DNA of 58,264 nt from Thermoanaerobaculum aquaticum (GTDB lineage: Bacteria > Acidobacteriota > Thermoanaerobaculia > Thermoanaerobaculales > Thermoanaerobaculaceae). Below the pieces are notes generated by a model. The model had not been told where the DNA came from, did no database searches, and saw nothing but the letters and a program-made list of their open reading frames with translations. The stretch's first letter is position 1; every line of letters begins with the position of its first letter. This document shows positions 35,975 through 44,894 of the stretch, one piece after another. Where the stretch lies: positions 70,836 through 129,099 of the forward strand of contig NZ_JMFG01000015.1 in the NCBI RefSeq assembly GCF_000687145.1, given 5' to 3'. Both the position numbers and the translations under genes were made by a program.

Positions 35975-38707
35975 TTAAAACGGATTGCCAAAGGCCAGGA
36001 AAAGCTCACCCTTGGACTCGCCGGGCAAGCGGTCCAGCTTCCAACCGTACTCCAGCCGCAGCGGCCCCACGGGCGTCTCAAAACGCAAACCCAGGCCGGC
36101 CCCCCAGCGGAGGTCCCCCAGGGCTACCTGGGATACCCCAGCCCAGGTGTTGCCGGAGTCCACGAAAACCGTGGCGCCCAGCGATCCCGAAAGCGGCACC
36201 CTCCACTCCAGGTTCGCCAGAAGCTGCGCGGCTCCCCCCACTGGCTCCAGCTCGCCAGTGGTGCAGTTGGGCTTGCTGGGGGGGCAGAGGAGGGTTTGCC
36301 CGGGAACGCCCAGGCGGTCGGTGGCAAAGGCCCGGTGGGAAACCCGCCCGCCGGCAAAGAACCGCACGGCAATGGGGACCCGCAGGTTGTCGGGGGTGGC
36401 CGCGCTTCCCTGGTACGGCTTGACCACGCCGGCGCGAAGCCCCACCGCTACCACGCTGTCCCCTGCGGGCTTAAGCCAGGAAAAGCCGGCGGTGAGCTTG
36501 GTAAACGATGCATCCGCCAAAAACACCGGAAACGCCCGTTGCAACTGCAATGAGAGCAGCAGCCCGCGGGTGGGCGAAAGGACATCATCGCGGGTGTCCC
36601 ATTCGAAGATTGGCGTAAGTGACGCCATGCGGAGCTTTTGCTTGGCGCGCTCCAGGCTTGAAAGCACTTCCTCCGGTGCATCCGGAGCAATGATCTGGTA
36701 GTCGTACCGCAGCAGAAAACGCCGGGGTCGTACCAGGTGATCTCCCAGCTCCACCCACATCCCCCGCCGCAGCAAGGAGTAGGTGGGAAAGGTTTCCTGG
36801 GTGCGGTAAATGGCCACCCAGGTGGGCTGGCCCAAAAGGCCTAAGCGGGCAGGCTCCCGGTAGTTGATTTGAAAGCGCTTGGTGCGGGCGGAAAAACGCC
36901 CCTCAAAGGAAAGAGTCCGCGCTTTGCCCCAGAGGTTGAGCTCGGACCAGCTTCCGGAAAGCCGCAGCTTCTCCTCGGTGTCCCAGCCGATGCCGGCGCT
37001 CAACGAACGCGAGGGGGCTTCCACCGGCTCCACCACCAGCCCCCGTTGGAGGCCAAAGTCCTGGCCGGAGATTTCCCGAACCGTCACTTTCTCAAAAACC
37101 CCCAAGCTCAAAAGCCGCCTTTGGGCCTGCAGGACGTTGTCGGGAGCAAACGGCTCCCCCGCCTGCAAACCCACCACCCGCTCCACCACCGCCGGGTCGG
37201 TGCGCCCCAGGGCAGCCACCACCACCCGGGCGATGTTGACCCGCGGTCCCGGCTGCACCTCGAAGGTGACATCGCAGGTGCTCTCCCGGCACTGGTGGGA
37301 GGCTTTCACCGAAGCGTTGGGGTAGCCGGCGTTGATCAGGTGATCGGCCAGCAGGGACTGGCCATCGCCTTCAGCCCCCTGGCTCCACGGCTGCCCGGTG
37401 GCTAAAGGCAGAGGCGGCAAAGGCACCCCTTCCGGCCATCCCGTAACGTTCACGGTTCCAAGCACGAAACGTGGCCCCAGCTCTACTGGAAACTCCAGCA
37501 TCACGCCCCGCCCTTCGGGTACCAGCCGCGGCCCGTCCACCCGCGCTTGGGCGTAGCCCAGGGCCTGCAGCGCCTGGCGGATGGCGTCGCGGTCGGCGGC
37601 TAAGGTGTCTTCGTCCACGGTGTGGCCGGCGAGCCTGCGCAGCTGCCCGGGGGCGGCGGCCACGTGTTCCCGCAACGTGGCCGCCAATCTCTCATCCTCG
37701 GGGAGGCCGGGGAAACGCACGGCCACAATAGGCAGCTTCCCTCCCCGCTTCACCCCCACCACTAGCCGACGCCCGGAAGGGGCCACCTCCTGGGTCACGC
37801 TCACCTGCGCCAACAGGAAGCCACGATGCTGAAGCGCCAGGCGCAGGCGACCTGCCAGCCATTCTTCGGAGCCCTCACCGAAGCCGTCCTCCCCGGAAAC
37901 GAAAGGCAGCGCCTCGGACAACGCGTCTTTGGGAATCGGGTCACCGGTTAAGGCCAGGGTAAAGTGATCCCCCGGGCGGACCTCAAAGCGCGCCAGCGTC
38001 CCGCAGCTTTTTGGCTCCAGAAAAGGGCCTTCAGCTTCCGCTTGCCAGTACCCCGCCCGACGCAAGGCGCTTAGAAGCTTGCGCCGCATGCCCTCCCGGG
38101 TGCCCAGGGTAAGCCGGCGCCCCGGCTTGACATCGCAGGCCTGCCAGAGTTTGGCTTGCTCCCAGGGCAAACCGGTGGCTTCCAGCTGGCAAAGCACCAG
38201 CGGCGGACCCAGCTGGCCGACGATGCGAACGTCCACCGTGCCCCGTTTCACATCGAAGTCCAGCTCCGGCTCCAGGCTGGCATTAGGGTAGCCGTCAGCT
38301 TTCAGTGCCTCGGAGGCCCGCGCCAGGGCTTGCTCCAGGTGCGCCACGTGAAGGGGAGCCCCTACCTTAATTTCCAGCTGTTGTGCCACCAGCTCCTTGT
38401 GGCGGGCGGGAAGCCCGGAAAACTCCAGGCGGGAAACCCGGGAAGCCACCTGGGCGTGGATCACCAGGGCCAGCCCGTCGCCCTCGGGGGTCAGCTCCAC
38501 CTGGGCGTCTTCCACCTCCCGCGAGGCCAGAAGGGCCTGCACACCCTGGCGAAGCGCTTGCCGGTTCAAGACGTCGCCGGGTTGCACACCAAAAATGCGG
38601 GTCAAGCGGGCGGGATCGCGGGCTCCGGGAGCCACCACCCGCACCGCGGTGACCGGCGCTTGCCCCCAGGGGATGGCCGCCAAGAGCACTAGTACCGCCG
38701 GCGCCAC
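35975..38707 (-). CDS. tamA: BamA/TamA-family outer-membrane assembly protein
   Basis: This 910-residue Omp85 protein has a short signal peptide and several POTRA domains. GVQALLASREVEDAQVEL and LLSLGVFEKVTVRE are typical POTRA strands, and there seem to be more than the three of E. coli TamA. The C-terminal 16-strand barrel carries the family signature near the end (GLRFETPVGPLRLEYGWKLDR) and a terminal phenylalanine. It inserts or exports outer-membrane proteins. The tamB gene directly upstream, overlapping by 19 bases, suggests the TAM system rather than the BAM complex. The GTG at 38707 is used. Confidence 0.9.
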   Translation of the reverse strand: MAPAVLVLLAAIPWGQAPVTAVRVVAPGARDPARLTRIFGVQPGDVLNRQALRQGVQALLASREVEDAQVELTPEGDGLALVIHAQVASRVSRLEFSGLPARHKELVAQQLEIKVGAPLHVAHLEQALARASEALKADGYPNASLEPELDFDVKRGTVDVRIVGQLGPPLVLCQLEATGLPWEQAKLWQACDVKPGRRLTLGTREGMRRKLLSALRRAGYWQAEAEGPFLEPKSCGTLARFEVRPGDHFTLALTGDPIPKDALSEALPFVSGEDGFGEGSEEWLAGRLRLALQHRGFLLAQVSVTQEVAPSGRRLVVGVKRGGKLPIVAVRFPGLPEDERLAATLREHVAAAPGQLRRLAGHTVDEDTLAADRDAIRQALQALGYAQARVDGPRLVPEGRGVMLEFPVELGPRFVLGTVNVTGWPEGVPLPPLPLATGQPWSQGAEGDGQSLLADHLINAGYPNASVKASHQCRESTCDVTFEVQPGPRVNIARVVVAALGRTDPAVVERVVGLQAGEPFAPDNVLQAQRRLLSLGVFEKVTVREISGQDFGLQRGLVVEPVEAPSRSLSAGIGWDTEEKLRLSGSWSELNLWGKARTLSFEGRFSARTKRFQINYREPARLGLLGQPTWVAIYRTQETFPTYSLLRRGMWVELGDHLVRPRRFLLRYDYQIIAPDAPEEVLSSLERAKQKLRMASLTPIFEWDTRDDVLSPTRGLLLSLQLQRAFPVFLADASFTKLTAGFSWLKPAGDSVVAVGLRAGVVKPYQGSAATPDNLRVPIAVRFFAGGRVSHRAFATDRLGVPGQTLLCPPSKPNCTTGELEPVGGAAQLLANLEWRVPLSGSLGATVFVDSGNTWAGVSQVALGDLRWGAGLGLRFETPVGPLRLEYGWKLDRLPGESKGELFLAFGNPF

Positions 38708-41700
38708 TTGACCTCCAGGGAGTAAGAGCCGTCGGTATCGCGGGTGGCCTCCAGGAACAGGTCCTTACCCACCCGCCATCGGCTTTGAATGACCTCCTCG
38801 CGGTTGGACGAGAGGTTTGAGGAAACCGTCACCGACCAATCAGGGGAAAGCTGCTTCACCATGGTCACCCGGGCGGTGGGGGTGCCCGCCTCGGTGGTCA
38901 CGAAAGGATCAATGCGCAGCTGATCCAGGGCTAAAAGCGTGCGGGTGCGGCTGGTCACCGCGCCGGTGAGTTGCTCGGTGATAAACGAGGAAGCCATGGC
39001 AGAGGCCGACGCGGCACCGGTTCCGGTGGAGGTGGGCGAAACCCCTAATGCCACCAGCGCCAGGATGTCGCTTTCCGGCAGCGGAGGGTCCGAGGAAAGC
39101 GTGGGGACCAGCCGGTCCAGCGTACCCGAAAGGCCCACCGTGACCGTGAAGTTCTGCACCAGCCCCCGGGCCTGCAGGTCAACCACCGGGCGGATGCGGT
39201 TGGCGTCCACAAAGCGGATGGAGGCCCTCTCCACCTCGTAGGTGACACCGGCGAGCTCCAGTTCGCCACCGGGAAGCAGCTCCACCTGCCCCAAAAGCCC
39301 CGGCTGGGACGAATCTCCCACCAAACGCAGCTCCCCTTGCGCCACCACCCGCGCCAAGGGGGTGTGAACCTCCAGCGTGCCAGGAATGGCAATGCGCACA
39401 TCAAAGCCCACCAGCCCGCGCTCGCCCGCGGCCGCCCGTTCGGGGGCCGCCAGCTCTTCCAAAACCAGGCGCTGGAGGCTCACATCCCGGCGGTACACCG
39501 ACCGGCGAAGCGAGAGCTGGCCGGAAAGCTGCAAGCTCGATAAATCACCGCCTAAACGCAGCTCACCGTCCAGGCTGGGTTCAAAACCCTGGGTCAGCGG
39601 CCAGCGCACCCCCGAAACGTTTAGGGCCAGGTCCAGCTCCAGGGCCGGCCACAGACGCAGCTGCCCGGAACAGGTGCCGGTTCCCCCTTGAAAGGCAAAG
39701 CGCACCTTTCTGAGGCTCATGACGTCCCCGGCCAACTCCGCCACCCCGTCAATGCCGGTCACCGGCGCCGGCAAGCCGGGGATGCGCAGGCTTCCCCCTT
39801 CCAAGCGCAAGACGCCCTCCACGCGGGGGGCTGCCTCCGTGCCTGAAATTTCCCCCACAACCTCCAGGCGGCCCCGGGGGGCGGCTTCCCGCCACAGAAT
39901 TCCCACCAGCGATGCCGGAACGCTGGCGGAGATGTTCCCCGAAAGGCTCCCATCCAGCTGGCGCGAACCGCGCAGGAAAAGCTGCGCTGAAGGCCCGGAA
40001 AGATCCAAGCCCGGAAGCTCAAAGTGCAGGCCCTGGAGGGTAAAGGGAGCTGGGTTCGTGAGTGACACCTTCTCCCCTTCCGCCACCAGCACCGCTTTGG
40101 TGATGGTGCCAAAAAGCGAAGGTGGGCCCGAAGGACCCAGGGCCAACCTCATCTGCGCTTCCAGCTCCCCTTCCACCGGCACCTCGCTGCCCAAAAGGTC
40201 CTTGAGCAAAAGCGAAAGGGAATCCACCTGCAGCGTTGCCGAACCGCTGTAGGACCGCTTTTCTTGCTTGACTTCGGCGGAAAAGCTCCAGCGATTGGGC
40301 CGCCGCAGGGAGGCCACCAGCCCCTGGGACCCCAGCGTCACCTCCCCCGCCACCCCCTGGGCTGACTCAAGGGTAAAGCGGCCCGCCGGTTCCTCCCAGG
40401 GAAAATCGCCCACGAACTCCGCTTCCACCTGGCCACCCAGGAGCCGGGCCAGCACCGGCGACAGCGGCTCAAGCCCCAGACCCCGCACCCTGGTGATCAC
40501 GGAAACCCTGTGGGTGGCAAAGTCCACCTCCAGAGAGCCGGAAACGCCACCCAGCGTGAGCGGCTCCACGCGCAGCACCTGATGCTGCAGGGTGGCGTGA
40601 GCCTCCCCTTGCCCCAAGGGCAGCCCCACCACGCTCACCCCCTCGAACTTCAGCTGGGCGTCCAGCTCCGGCCGGTCCAGGTTGCCCGAGAGCACGCCGG
40701 TAACCGCACCGGTCCCTTCCAGGGGAAACTTCAACCCGGCCCACCGGGCAAACCGCGAAAGCGGCAGCGAACGCCCGGCGTAGTCAAGCCTCAAACCCGG
40801 CGATGCCTGCTTGAGATCCAGCTCGCCCGAAAAGCGAATGGTGCCGCTGCCCAAAGCCAGCTTGCCATGGGAAAAGCGCAACGCCCCCTGGCTGAGGTTG
40901 ATTTCCCCCTCCAGGGCATCAGCTTCTATGGGCCCGAGACAAACCGGAGAAAGGGCCACCGGCCCTGCTACCGTCAAATCCGTAAAAGGACCGGAAATCG
41001 TAAGGTCAAAGACCGCAGTACCCGACAAGCTTTCCGGCAGGAGCGGTTGCCCCACCCATCCTGCAAGCAAACTCGAAACGGCTTCCAGCGGAACGCCGGG
41101 GCTTGCCACCGACCACTGGGGAATCCAGCTGCCCAGCGCCAAAGTTCCCTGCCAGGAAACGGAGCCGCCGCTCAAGGCCAGGTTCCTGGCCTCGAAGTGC
41201 AGGGCGTCGTCGCCCCGCAAGGCCACCACCAGCTGCCCTTCCGCCGGCACCCCATCCCCCGCCGGGGAAAGCCGTACCACGGCTACACCCTTCCCCTGCC
41301 CAATTTGAGAGCCTTCCCACGCCAGCTCGGCGTTGACGCTGGCCCTAGCCGCAAGGCCCCCTCGCCCAATCCCCAAAAAGCTCAAGAAATCGTCAATACC
41401 CACCCCGTGACCGCGTAAAGCAACCCGGTGGTTAAAGGTGGGACCGAAATCCGCAAGCTGGTAGGAGCCCTCCACCTGCCCACCGGCAAAGCGCCCGGAA
41501 TCCAGCGTGGCTTCCACCCCATCCGGGGAAACGTGAACTCTGCCCGCTAGCTCGTTGACCTCAAAGCCCACCACCCGCACCGCTTGGCTTGCCACCTCGG
41601 CATCCACCGCAAAACCGTCACCGCTCACCGTGATGGTGCTGTGGGCCTGGACCTGCCCGGCAAGCCCGATGCCGATGCCGAAAAACTCGTCCACCTGGGC

Positions 41701-42441
41701 CAGGTCACCCATCACCAGCCCCGCCAGCCGAACGGCCACCGCCGGCGTCCAGGCAACCTCGCCGCTCACGTTCGCGTTCACCCCGGAAGCCTGCAAAATC
41801 AAGCGCCGCAACTCGATCTTTCCCGGAAAAACCCTGCCCCAGGCTTCAAGGCTTCCCGAAAGCGGCTGCCCACCGGTGCCTTCCAGCTTGAAGGCTCCGG
41901 CCCGTAAGAAAGCTCCCTGGAAGCCCCGCTCCGGCCGGCCGCTGACCATCAGCTGAAAATCGCTCACCGAAAGCAGAAAACCCGGGGCGAGCTGTAGCTG
42001 GTCTAAGCTCGCGTCTTGCACCACCAGCTGCCGCACGCTCACCCGCAGTGGGGTTCCACCGCCGCCGGAGGAAACCCCAAAAGCGGCCTGGGAACGGACC
42101 CGCAACCCTTTGACTTGGACAAGGTTCAGCCCAATTTCCCGGTCTGCCAGCTGGAAGCTTCCAAGGTTGACCTGAGCCCCAGCGATCTCCACCGCGGGAT
42201 GCGACTCCGGCCCCACGCGCAAGTTCTGCACCGAAAGCTGCAAGGGCAAAAGCTGCAGGCGAACATCCCCCACCGCCACCGGCTGACGCAAGCTATTGGC
42301 CAGCTTTTCGGCCACCAGGCGAGCCAGCGCTGCCCGGCCTTTGGCGCTTTCCAGCCACAGCACCAAAGCCTGCAGGGCGAGCAGCAAAATCGCCACCGCC
42401 GCCGCGCCAATTTTGGCCCGACGCCACCACCGCCCAGCCAC
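38689..42441 (-). CDS. tamB: TamB-like translocation and assembly module protein
   Basis: This 1250-residue protein has a single N-terminal membrane anchor (KIGAAAVAILLLALQALVLWL). A very long beta-rich periplasmic region of AsmA/TamB-type repeats follows, then a C-terminal DUF490/TamB domain, recognised by SDPPLPESDILALVALG and DWSVTVSSNLSSNREEVIQSRW. It forms a lipid- or protein-conducting bridge between membranes together with TamA. The GTG at 42441 is chosen because GGGGGAG lies 5 bases upstream and it comes right after the nadK stop. The longer frame to 42546 overlaps nadK. Confidence 0.88.
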   Translation of the reverse strand: MAGRWWRRAKIGAAAVAILLLALQALVLWLESAKGRAALARLVAEKLANSLRQPVAVGDVRLQLLPLQLSVQNLRVGPESHPAVEIAGAQVNLGSFQLADREIGLNLVQVKGLRVRSQAAFGVSSGGGGTPLRVSVRQLVVQDASLDQLQLAPGFLLSVSDFQLMVSGRPERGFQGAFLRAGAFKLEGTGGQPLSGSLEAWGRVFPGKIELRRLILQASGVNANVSGEVAWTPAVAVRLAGLVMGDLAQVDEFFGIGIGLAGQVQAHSTITVSGDGFAVDAEVASQAVRVVGFEVNELAGRVHVSPDGVEATLDSGRFAGGQVEGSYQLADFGPTFNHRVALRGHGVGIDDFLSFLGIGRGGLAARASVNAELAWEGSQIGQGKGVAVVRLSPAGDGVPAEGQLVVALRGDDALHFEARNLALSGGSVSWQGTLALGSWIPQWSVASPGVPLEAVSSLLAGWVGQPLLPESLSGTAVFDLTISGPFTDLTVAGPVALSPVCLGPIEADALEGEINLSQGALRFSHGKLALGSGTIRFSGELDLKQASPGLRLDYAGRSLPLSRFARWAGLKFPLEGTGAVTGVLSGNLDRPELDAQLKFEGVSVVGLPLGQGEAHATLQHQVLRVEPLTLGGVSGSLEVDFATHRVSVITRVRGLGLEPLSPVLARLLGGQVEAEFVGDFPWEEPAGRFTLESAQGVAGEVTLGSQGLVASLRRPNRWSFSAEVKQEKRSYSGSATLQVDSLSLLLKDLLGSEVPVEGELEAQMRLALGPSGPPSLFGTITKAVLVAEGEKVSLTNPAPFTLQGLHFELPGLDLSGPSAQLFLRGSRQLDGSLSGNISASVPASLVGILWREAAPRGRLEVVGEISGTEAAPRVEGVLRLEGGSLRIPGLPAPVTGIDGVAELAGDVMSLRKVRFAFQGGTGTCSGQLRLWPALELDLALNVSGVRWPLTQGFEPSLDGELRLGGDLSSLQLSGQLSLRRSVYRRDVSLQRLVLEELAAPERAAAGERGLVGFDVRIAIPGTLEVHTPLARVVAQGELRLVGDSSQPGLLGQVELLPGGELELAGVTYEVERASIRFVDANRIRPVVDLQARGLVQNFTVTVGLSGTLDRLVPTLSSDPPLPESDILALVALGVSPTSTGTGAASASAMASSFITEQLTGAVTSRTRTLLALDQLRIDPFVTTEAGTPTARVTMVKQLSPDWSVTVSSNLSSNREEVIQSRWRVGKDLFLEATRDTDGSYSLEVKWRRRY

Positions 42442-42442
42442 G

Positions 42443-43324
42443 CTAGCTCCCCCAGTCACCCCATTTGAGCTTATCGTGGAGAATGGCAAAGAAGCTCGCG
42501 TTGGGTGGACGCACAACCAAGAGCGGGTCGCCTTCCGGAAGCACACGAACGACGTGGCGATCGGTTAAGGGAAGCCCGTACTGCCCATCCAAGGTCAAGT
42601 ACACGTCCTCGTCCCCGGGGTGCACCCGCACCGCCACCTGGAAGTTCAACGGCACCACCAGGGGCCGGTTGGAAAGGGTATGGGAGCAGATGGGGGTAAT
42701 GATCAGCGCGGAAAGCTCAGGGTGGACGATGGGTCCCCCCGCCGAAAGGTTGTAGGCGGTGGAGCCGGTAGGGCTGGCAAGGATTAAGCCATCGGCGCGG
42801 TAGCGCGAAAGGAACTCCCCTTCCACCTCCACATCGATGGTCAGAATGCGGGCGAGGGTGGCCTTGGCGATCACCACGTCGTTGAGCACCAGGAACTCCT
42901 GGGGAGAATCGTCGCCTTCCACCCGGCACAGCAGGCGGTCGCGCTTTTCACACTGCACGTTGCCGGCCAGCAGATCGTCCACAAGCTGCCAGACGCGTTC
43001 CGCCGGATGCTCGGTCAAAAACCCCAGGGTCCCCAGGTTGACCCCCGCTACCGGGGTGGTAGCCGGGCAGCCGCGGGTCACCGAGAGGAACGTGCCGTCA
43101 CCACCCAGCACCAAAACCGCGTCCACCTCGCGGCCCAAGGCGGCCCGGGAGGGGCCAGGTTCAGCGTGCAAAAACGGGGCGCTTTGGGCGTCCACCACCA
43201 CCTCCACGCCCTTTTCTTTCACCCGGGAAAGCACCTGTTGGCCCAGAGCGATGGCCTGGGGGCTGGAGGTTTTGACCACCAACCCCATCTTCTTTGGCGG
43301 TAAACGGAGCGGAGGGGCGCTCAC
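42443..43324 (-). CDS. nadK: NAD kinase
   Basis: It phosphorylates NAD to NADP using ATP or polyphosphate. It has 293 residues. The nucleotide motif GGDGT is at residues 74-78, and NLGTLGFLTE and ASPTGSTAYNLSAGGPIV are the other family blocks. The GTG at 43324 has no ribosome-binding site, but TACAAT lies exactly 6 bases upstream, so the transcript is probably leaderless. It heads a minus-strand run that continues through tamB, tamA, the GWxTD gene and ribBA. Confidence 0.95.
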   Translation of the reverse strand: MSAPPLRLPPKKMGLVVKTSSPQAIALGQQVLSRVKEKGVEVVVDAQSAPFLHAEPGPSRAALGREVDAVLVLGGDGTFLSVTRGCPATTPVAGVNLGTLGFLTEHPAERVWQLVDDLLAGNVQCEKRDRLLCRVEGDDSPQEFLVLNDVVIAKATLARILTIDVEVEGEFLSRYRADGLILASPTGSTAYNLSAGGPIVHPELSALIITPICSHTLSNRPLVVPLNFQVAVRVHPGDEDVYLTLDGQYGLPLTDRHVVRVLPEGDPLLVVRPPNASFFAILHDKLKWGDWGS

Positions 43325-43330
43325 GGTGAG

Positions 43331-43336
43331 ATTGTA
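43331..43336 (-). promoter_or_regulatory. -10 box of the leaderless nadK transcript
   Basis: TACAAT is followed by CTCACC and then the GTG. The sequence CTCACCGTGAG, spanning the start codon, is itself a palindrome and recurs at plsC. Confidence 0.55.
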
Positions 43337-43360
43337 CCGCTAATCCACAAACTTCTGACC

Positions 43361-43384
43361 CCGCAAATGGGCCCCGCTTTGCGG
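43361..43384. repeat. inverted repeat between the selenoprotein gene and nadK
   Basis: CCGCAAA (43361-43367) and TTTGCGG (43378-43384) are perfect complements around a 10-base GC-rich loop. On the minus strand the T-run comes before, not after, the stem, so it is not a canonical terminator for the selenoprotein gene. It may be an operator or RNA structure. Confidence 0.4.
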
Positions 43385-43439
43385 AAAAAAAGCCAGCTTC
43401 ACCCGGGATTCACGCGGAAAAACTTGTGTTTTGCGAGGG

Positions 43440-43658
43440 CTAGCCGCGGATTTTAGCGAGGATTTCCTCGGGTTCGGGGAACCGCCCCTCGTGGTGCTTA
43501 GAAAAAACCCGGCGGCCGTCCACCTCCACATCAAAAACACCGCCCGAGCCTTTCACCAGCTCCACCTTGGCCCCCAGTTGCTCCTTCAGAAAGGCCGCCA
43601 ACCTGGCAGCTCTTGGCTCGTAGTTTCAAACCACGCAGTAGGTAATGCGAACGTTCAT
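43440..43658 (-). CDS. SelW-like (Rdx family) selenoprotein; in-frame TGA read as selenocysteine
   Basis: The frame from ATG 43658 reads MNVRITYCVV, then TGA (43628-43626), then continues without another stop to TAG at 43440, giving 72 residues. With the TGA as Sec, residues 8-11 are C-V-V-U, the CxxU redox motif of the SelW/SelT/SelH (Rdx) thioredoxin-like family. The rest fits the family: NYEPRAARLAAFLKEQLGA, VELVKGSGGVFDVEVDGR and the C-terminal VFSKHHEGRFPEPEEI. GAGGGGGTG lies just before the ATG, and TACAAT in the end of the MFS gene may be its promoter. TGA ends other genes here (hemC, for example), so it is not a reassigned codon. A hairpin after the TGA matches a bacterial SECIS. The role is probably thiol redox. 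No sel genes are in the window. Confidence 0.85.
43594..43628 (-). promoter_or_regulatory. predicted bacterial SECIS element
   Basis: Fifteen bases after the TGA, GCTGCC (43610-43605) pairs with GGCGGC (43599-43594), with one G-U pair, around the loop AGGTT. The apical loop with GGU resembles the SelB-binding loop of E. coli fdhF. It starts 21 bases after the TGA, in the usual bacterial range. It supports Sec insertion. Confidence 0.65.
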
Positions 43659-43667
43659 AGCACCCCC

Positions 43668-44894
43668 TCAGCGCGAGGATTGTACATCACGCGCCGGAAG
43701 CAGTTGCAGCAACGCCGCGGCCACGCAAAGGCCGGCCCCCAAACCAATGGCCACCGGAACCCCCAGGCGCTCGGCCAAAAAACCGGCCAAAAGTCCGCCC
43801 AGCGGCGCTCCCCCGGAAAAAACCCAAATGTAAAGCGAGATGAGCCGGGCCCGTAAGTGGTCCGGGGAGGTGGTTTGAATGTAGCCATTGGTGGTGGCCA
43901 GTTGCGCGGCCACGGATAGACCCGCCACCACCAGGGCCAGGCACGCCAGGAAAAGCCCCTTGCTCAAAGCCAAAGCCGCCAGGGAAAGCCCTAAAAGCAG
44001 CTGCGAGCGAAACACCGTACCCCGCCTCCGGCCTGTAGCCGCCACCCCCAGGGAACCCACCATGGCCCCCAAACCGGAGGCAGCCAAAAGCAAACCGTAA
44101 CCGCGGGCGTCGGTACCCAGCACCGAGCTGGCCAGGGCGGGAAGCAGGGTACTGTAGGAAAGCCCAAAAACCGCGGTGACCAGCACCGCCATCAGTAGCT
44201 TCCGTACCTTTCGGTGCTGCCACGCAAACTGCAAACCCTCCAGAAGCTGGGGGATCACCTGCAGGCGCTGCGCCGGTACCGACGCCTTTTCCTGCACCGA
44301 AAGGACCGCCAGCAAGAACGGCACAAAGCTCGCCGCGTTCAGGGCAAAGCACCAGCCCTCCCCGGCTTCCGCCACCATCAGCCCGGCCAACGCCGGTCCC
44401 GCCAGCCTCCCCGCGTTAAACACCGTGGAGTTCAAAGAAACCGCGCTTTGCAAATCGGCAACCGGCACCAGCTCCACTTGAAAGCTCTGGCGGGAAGGCA
44501 TGTCCACGGTGTCAATGAGCCCCTGCACCAGGGCCAAAATGAAAACGTGCCAAACCCGCACCTGGCCGGTAAGTGTCAGAAACGCCAAAAGCCCCGCCTG
44601 GAAGATGCCGGCGCTTTGCGTGAAGATCAGAAGCTTGCGGCGGGGGAAGTAGTCGGTAAGCACGCCGGCAAAGGGCAAACCGAAGAGCGAAGGGCCAAAG
44701 CGCAGGGCGGAAAGGATCCCCAAAGCTTGCGCCGAGTTGGTTAAGCGAAACACCAGCCACCCCTGGGCTAAGGTTTGCATCCAGCTCCCCAGCACCGAAA
44801 TGGCCCAACCCACCCAGTAGCGCCGGAAAGGTGGATGGCGCAACGCCCGAAAAGCGGAACGCCAGGACGTCTTCACGCTCCCCAAATTCGCCAA
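43668..44894 (-). CDS. MFS transporter (EntS/MFS_3-like exporter)
   Basis: This 408-residue protein has twelve hydrophobic segments. The N terminus RALRHPPFRRYWVGWAISVLGSWMQTLAQGWLVFRLT and the TDYFPRRKLLI motif between helices 2 and 3 are typical of the MFS_3 group, which includes siderophore and drug exporters. Substrate is unknown. The start is uncertain. A TTG at 44894 is the longest, and a GTG at 44876 is a possible alternative with a poorly spaced GGGGA. It lies 6 bases after rmuC and 9 bases before the selenoprotein gene on the same strand. Confidence 0.85.
   Translation of the reverse strand: MANLGSVKTSWRSAFRALRHPPFRRYWVGWAISVLGSWMQTLAQGWLVFRLTNSAQALGILSALRFGPSLFGLPFAGVLTDYFPRRKLLIFTQSAGIFQAGLLAFLTLTGQVRVWHVFILALVQGLIDTVDMPSRQSFQVELVPVADLQSAVSLNSTVFNAGRLAGPALAGLMVAEAGEGWCFALNAASFVPFLLAVLSVQEKASVPAQRLQVIPQLLEGLQFAWQHRKVRKLLMAVLVTAVFGLSYSTLLPALASSVLGTDARGYGLLLAASGLGAMVGSLGVAATGRRRGTVFRSQLLLGLSLAALALSKGLFLACLALVVAGLSVAAQLATTNGYIQTTSPDHLRARLISLYIWVFSGGAPLGGLLAGFLAERLGVPVAIGLGAGLCVAAALLQLLPARDVQSSR

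Follow-up and report, generated by a model that had tools for sequence, protein, structure and literature searches.

Bacterial SelW-like selenoproteins were described between 2005 and 2008 (PMC1794560, PMC1088965, PMC2398784) and constitute one of the commonest selenoprotein families of bacteria (PMC2398784), ranking as the largest family tabulated for the GOS data with 427 SelW-like members (PMC2398784). In epsilonproteobacteria, SelW genes were completely missed by annotation (PMC4607533). Acidobacteria with a few selenoproteins have been mentioned (PMC1794560, PMC12013277), and our literature search for Thermoanaerobaculum together with selenoproteins (including SelW) found no paper that treats both. 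The stretch of Thermoanaerobaculum aquaticum DNA analysed here (58,264 nucleotides; hereafter, the window) had been proposed in a preliminary description to carry an unannotated SelW-like gene that is read through an in-frame TGA.

On the basis of the reading frame, homology, the conserved TGA, the selenocysteine (Sec) gene set, a comparative SECIS signal and the predicted fold, all obtained by computation, we are nearly certain that the gene encodes a SelW-like Rdx selenoprotein (that is, a thioredoxin-like redox protein) in which UGA codon 11 is recoded as Sec in a SECIS- and SelB-dependent manner. Recoding of the UGA is strongly supported by these computations, and we infer actual Sec insertion from known biology. 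The protein shares with described bacterial SelW-like selenoproteins a CxxU motif in the N-terminal region, a small single domain, a SECIS-like hairpin after the UGA and a scarcity of Cys homologs among Sec users (PMC1794560), and differs from them only in its host lineage. The earlier expectation that such proteins are known in bacteria is borne out by the literature (PMC1794560, PMC2398784, PMC4607533) and by a dedicated NCBI model (NF041051), and the gene is a correct, well-supported and ordinary addition to this group. It adds a selenoprotein gene, one of the kind cut short in standard gene calling, to a lineage in which few selenoproteins have been described.

The SelW-like frame and its family

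The SelW-like frame occupies positions 43440–43658 on the minus strand and, with TGA translated as Sec, encodes 72 residues (MNVRITYCVVUNYEPRAARLAAFLKEQLGAKVELVKGSGGVFDVEVDGRRVFSKHHEGRFPEPEEILAKIRG). It opens with ATG (43658–43656), closes with TAG (43442–43440) and has a single interruption, the TGA of codon 11 (43628–43626). The C-V-V-U motif (residues 8–11; 43626–43637, minus strand) is placed by translation, by TGA conservation among homologs and by alignment to CxxC. A purine-rich putative ribosome-binding site (GAGGGGG; 43663–43669, minus strand) precedes the ATG with a gap of 4 nt and shares bases with the stop codon (TGA) of the upstream major facilitator superfamily (MFS) transporter gene.

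By its profile matches, which cover the whole domain, the product is a member of the SelT/SelW/SelH (Rdx) family: Pfam Rdx PF10262 (E = 2.1e-21; 76.3 bits against a cut-off of 22.6), NCBIfam TIGR02174 (68.5 bits against 34.2) and the SelT/SelW/SelH equivalog NF041051 (96.6 bits against 88, with model positions 1–69 of 70 aligned) all score above their cut-offs. The last of these, SelTWH_Campy, is a curated equivalog model named after Campylobacter, whereas the gene analysed here is acidobacterial. In sequence searches of the PDB, U11 aligns with the second Cys of the CxxC motif in the solved relatives 2ljk, 2fa8 and 2oka. An AlphaFold2 model built with 28 homologs as input (pLDDT 96.3) predicts a thioredoxin-like SelW/Rdx fold in which CVVU (C8 and U11) sits between the first strand (E2–8) and the first helix (H14–28). 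Its best structural match in the PDB is the SelW-related 2fa8 (TM 0.92), and mouse SelW (2npb) is among the lower-ranked matches. Mouse SelW, Atu0228 (2fa8) and MIEN1/C17orf37 (2ljk) share the fold and carry the redox pair in the same place; the sequence similarity to mouse SelW is low (E 0.11), and 2fa8 and 2ljk have Cys where the Thermoanaerobaculum protein has Sec. The preliminary description therefore holds in its account of a complete Rdx/SelW-like protein (sequence, frame and coordinates being exact), of C-V-V-U at the family's CxxU/CxxC site and of a ribosome-binding site, here termed putative, before the ATG.

The preliminary description is likewise accurate in calling TGA an ordinary stop in other genes of the window, where it terminates 13 of 38 long open reading frames. 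The window DNA is G+C-rich and a TGA is often followed by a long open run (at least 61 open codons after 269 of 1,100 TGA triplets), so the open run after codon 11 is unremarkable alone, and the case rests on homology rather than on the open frame. The full-length family match and the conservation of TGA, and not of a sense codon, in all covered relatives are far beyond chance.

Conservation of the in-frame TGA

In 60 related genomes, 53 of 54 matching places have exactly one TGA, and the fifty-fourth is a fragment that starts past the site. TGA is likewise present at all 30 GTDB loci with coverage of the site, which come from several phyla (by record title, Thermoanaerobaculum, Planctomycetota, Myxococcales, Gemmatimonadota, Actinomycetota and others). 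The closest of these are two Thermoanaerobaculum metagenome-assembled genomes (90% and 82% protein identity), which match the two same-genus genomes of the 60-genome search. Homologs in several phyla share about 43–90% identity in the frame after the TGA, and little or no change is seen at Cys8, in the G-x-F-x-V core and at other residues.

These comparisons bear on whether the TGA is simply a true stop, leaving either a pseudogene or a 10-codon peptide followed by dead sequence. Such a reading would agree with the normal use of TGA as a terminator in the window and with the frequency of long open runs behind it. Dead sequence would not stay conserved, however, and the downstream frame keeps Cys8 and its core across phyla while the TGA is retained and never swapped for another stop, so that the true-stop reading is contradicted and, in our estimate, highly improbable. 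The preliminary description had named close homologs as one of its checks, and the same in-frame TGA is present in all that cover the site.

Cys-containing forms of the family do occur in the phylum. Among 149 genomes sampled, 56 have a SelW-like match, nearly all with one TGA, and three stop-free matches read CTQC, with TGC (Cys) at the Sec codon; Cys and Sec are thus exchanged at this site, distant homologs carrying TGC where the SelW-like gene has TGA. It might be supposed from these forms that the real genome has TGC or TGT and that the TGA reflects a sequencing or assembly error in a Cys-form Rdx protein. Yet close homologs share the in-frame TGA, which occupies the same codon in two further Thermoanaerobaculum species and in dozens of independent genomes, and the codon choices in the downstream hairpin (see below) are sensible only with Sec insertion; the probability that we assign to such an error is close to nil.

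Several genomes of the phylum encode a divergent second SelW-like type (L100, L101 and L102; G047:C6:156161, G060:C1:149585 and G125:C77:14971), which has the motif YC(D/P)TU, is likewise interrupted by an in-frame TGA and sometimes accompanies the main type in one genome. Separately, a mostly actinobacterial group of SelW-like sequences (L034–L038, L040 and L043) reads YCVPUDYS and keeps the TGA, with a different putative hairpin and loop codon.

Selenocysteine machinery and the putative SECIS hairpin

The preliminary description had pointed out that the gene implies a working Sec system, and the T. aquaticum genome (2.66 Mb; 95.8% completeness) carries the full set by sequence search: selA (contig C11; 464.8 bits), selB (contig C2; 340.7 bits), selD (contig C4; 344.4 bits) and a tRNA-Sec gene (selC; contig C7) with anticodon TCA (UCA). 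SelD is itself a selenoprotein with one in-frame TGA in the motif SCAGU (L011:1501-2424, equivalent to G000:C4:1976-2899), so that, beside a complete Sec system, the genome encodes two or more selenoproteins. Matches resembling formate dehydrogenase and AhpD (CMD) in the same genome have no in-frame TGA. Related genomes carry selA in 57 of 60 cases, and since these include some complete genomes that lack this SelW, the machinery does not depend on the gene. By eye, a hairpin (GGTCC-GGC-GGACC) was also observed after the selD TGA.

The minimal SECIS hairpin that has been described for bacteria carries an invariant G in its loop (PMC4607533). In the SelW-like gene, a putative bacterial SECIS spans 43594–43610 on the minus strand (nucleotides 19–35, numbered from the U of UGA), with the stem GCTGCC/GGCGGC and the loop AGGTT (43600–43604). 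The hairpin fits a bacterial SECIS with G in the apical loop, a candidate assignment with comparative support that is weak on the single sequence. For the window sequence itself, the stability of the hairpin is unexceptional (z −0.68 over 43 nt), another fold is preferred over 59 nt and 15% of synonymous recodings do equally well, so that the assignment rests on comparison.

The comparative signal was evaluated in 51 distinct homologs, leaving out the mostly actinobacterial subtype noted above (seven loci), whose hairpin differs. The loop codon (residue 19) is AGG in 14 of 14 homologs with Arg, AGT in 16 of 16 with Ser, and GGT or GGG in 21 of 21 with Gly, far above the 1.2, 0.9 and 8.8, respectively, that the codon usage of these loci would predict. 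The joint log10 probability of these choices is −45.7 if the homologs are independent, an assumption that overstates the case given that they are related. Codons 15–23 are more stable than the mean synonymous recoding in 48 of the 51 homologs (mean z −1.7). Across 32 sequences, standard pairs fill 94.8% of pair cells, a share reached by none of 500 shuffles and by no slid register. The pair between columns 21 and 33 (CG 23, GC 4, GU 2, UG 2 and UA 1) is never broken in these 32 homologs and joins two third codon positions, those of codons 17 and 21 (mostly Ala/Ala); its covariation is not forced by the protein sequence. The synonymous-site signal in the loop codon gives a clean test of Sec insertion in bacteria that can be used again elsewhere. 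When the genome was searched with a covariance model of the SelW hairpin, no further SECIS rose above noise, not even that of SelD; the model is therefore one of the SelW family rather than a general SECIS model.

A third alternative is readthrough of the UGA as another amino acid (that is, by near-cognate suppression or as Trp) without Sec. We found nothing in its favour, and the full selA/selB/selC/selD set, the occurrence of both Cys and Sec at this position and the SECIS-like hairpin all speak against it; we give it scarcely any credence. Like the true stop and the sequencing error, this reading was rejected.

For the favoured reading, recoding as Sec, the most likely scheme is as follows. 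SelA and SelD would make Sec, and the SECIS hairpin would recruit SelB with Sec-tRNA(Sec) to the UGA, such that codon 11 would be decoded as Sec. At the point where the first strand of the thioredoxin-like fold ends, Cys8 and Sec11 would then make up a redox pair of the selenenylsulfide type. By analogy with the SelW/Rdx family, on which any view of its redox activity, electron donor or substrate is based, the protein would most likely be a small thiol oxidoreductase or a redox relay fed from a cellular thiol or thioredoxin pool.

Genes around the SelW-like gene

Upstream, a gene for an MFS transporter (MFS_3; 43668–44894, minus strand) stops 9 nt short of the SelW start codon, and the two are possibly in one operon. 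An NAD kinase gene (42443–43324, minus strand) lies downstream; both neighbours were assigned by Pfam and by synteny in relatives. In flanks of about 1.5 kb, both genes stand beside SelW at 10 of 14 loci from the same genus and GTDB family (L054–L065, L067 and L068) and one of the two at the other four, and neither was detected near SelW among the compared loci outside the GTDB family.

The link to NAD kinase could suggest NADPH-dependent redox work, or the adjacency may merely reflect shared ancestry inside one family. It seems unlikely to us that, in this bacterial family, the neighbouring transporter and NAD kinase have SelW as a dedicated partner in an unrecognized NADPH-linked redox module; if true, the gene order would point to the function of bacterial SelW, and the conserved neighbours are one lead on its physiological role. 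As a further observation, the order MFS transporter, SelW, NAD kinase and a large 1,285-residue protein (38689–44894 in the window) is conserved in the GTDB family, the large protein being TamB-like by inspection only.
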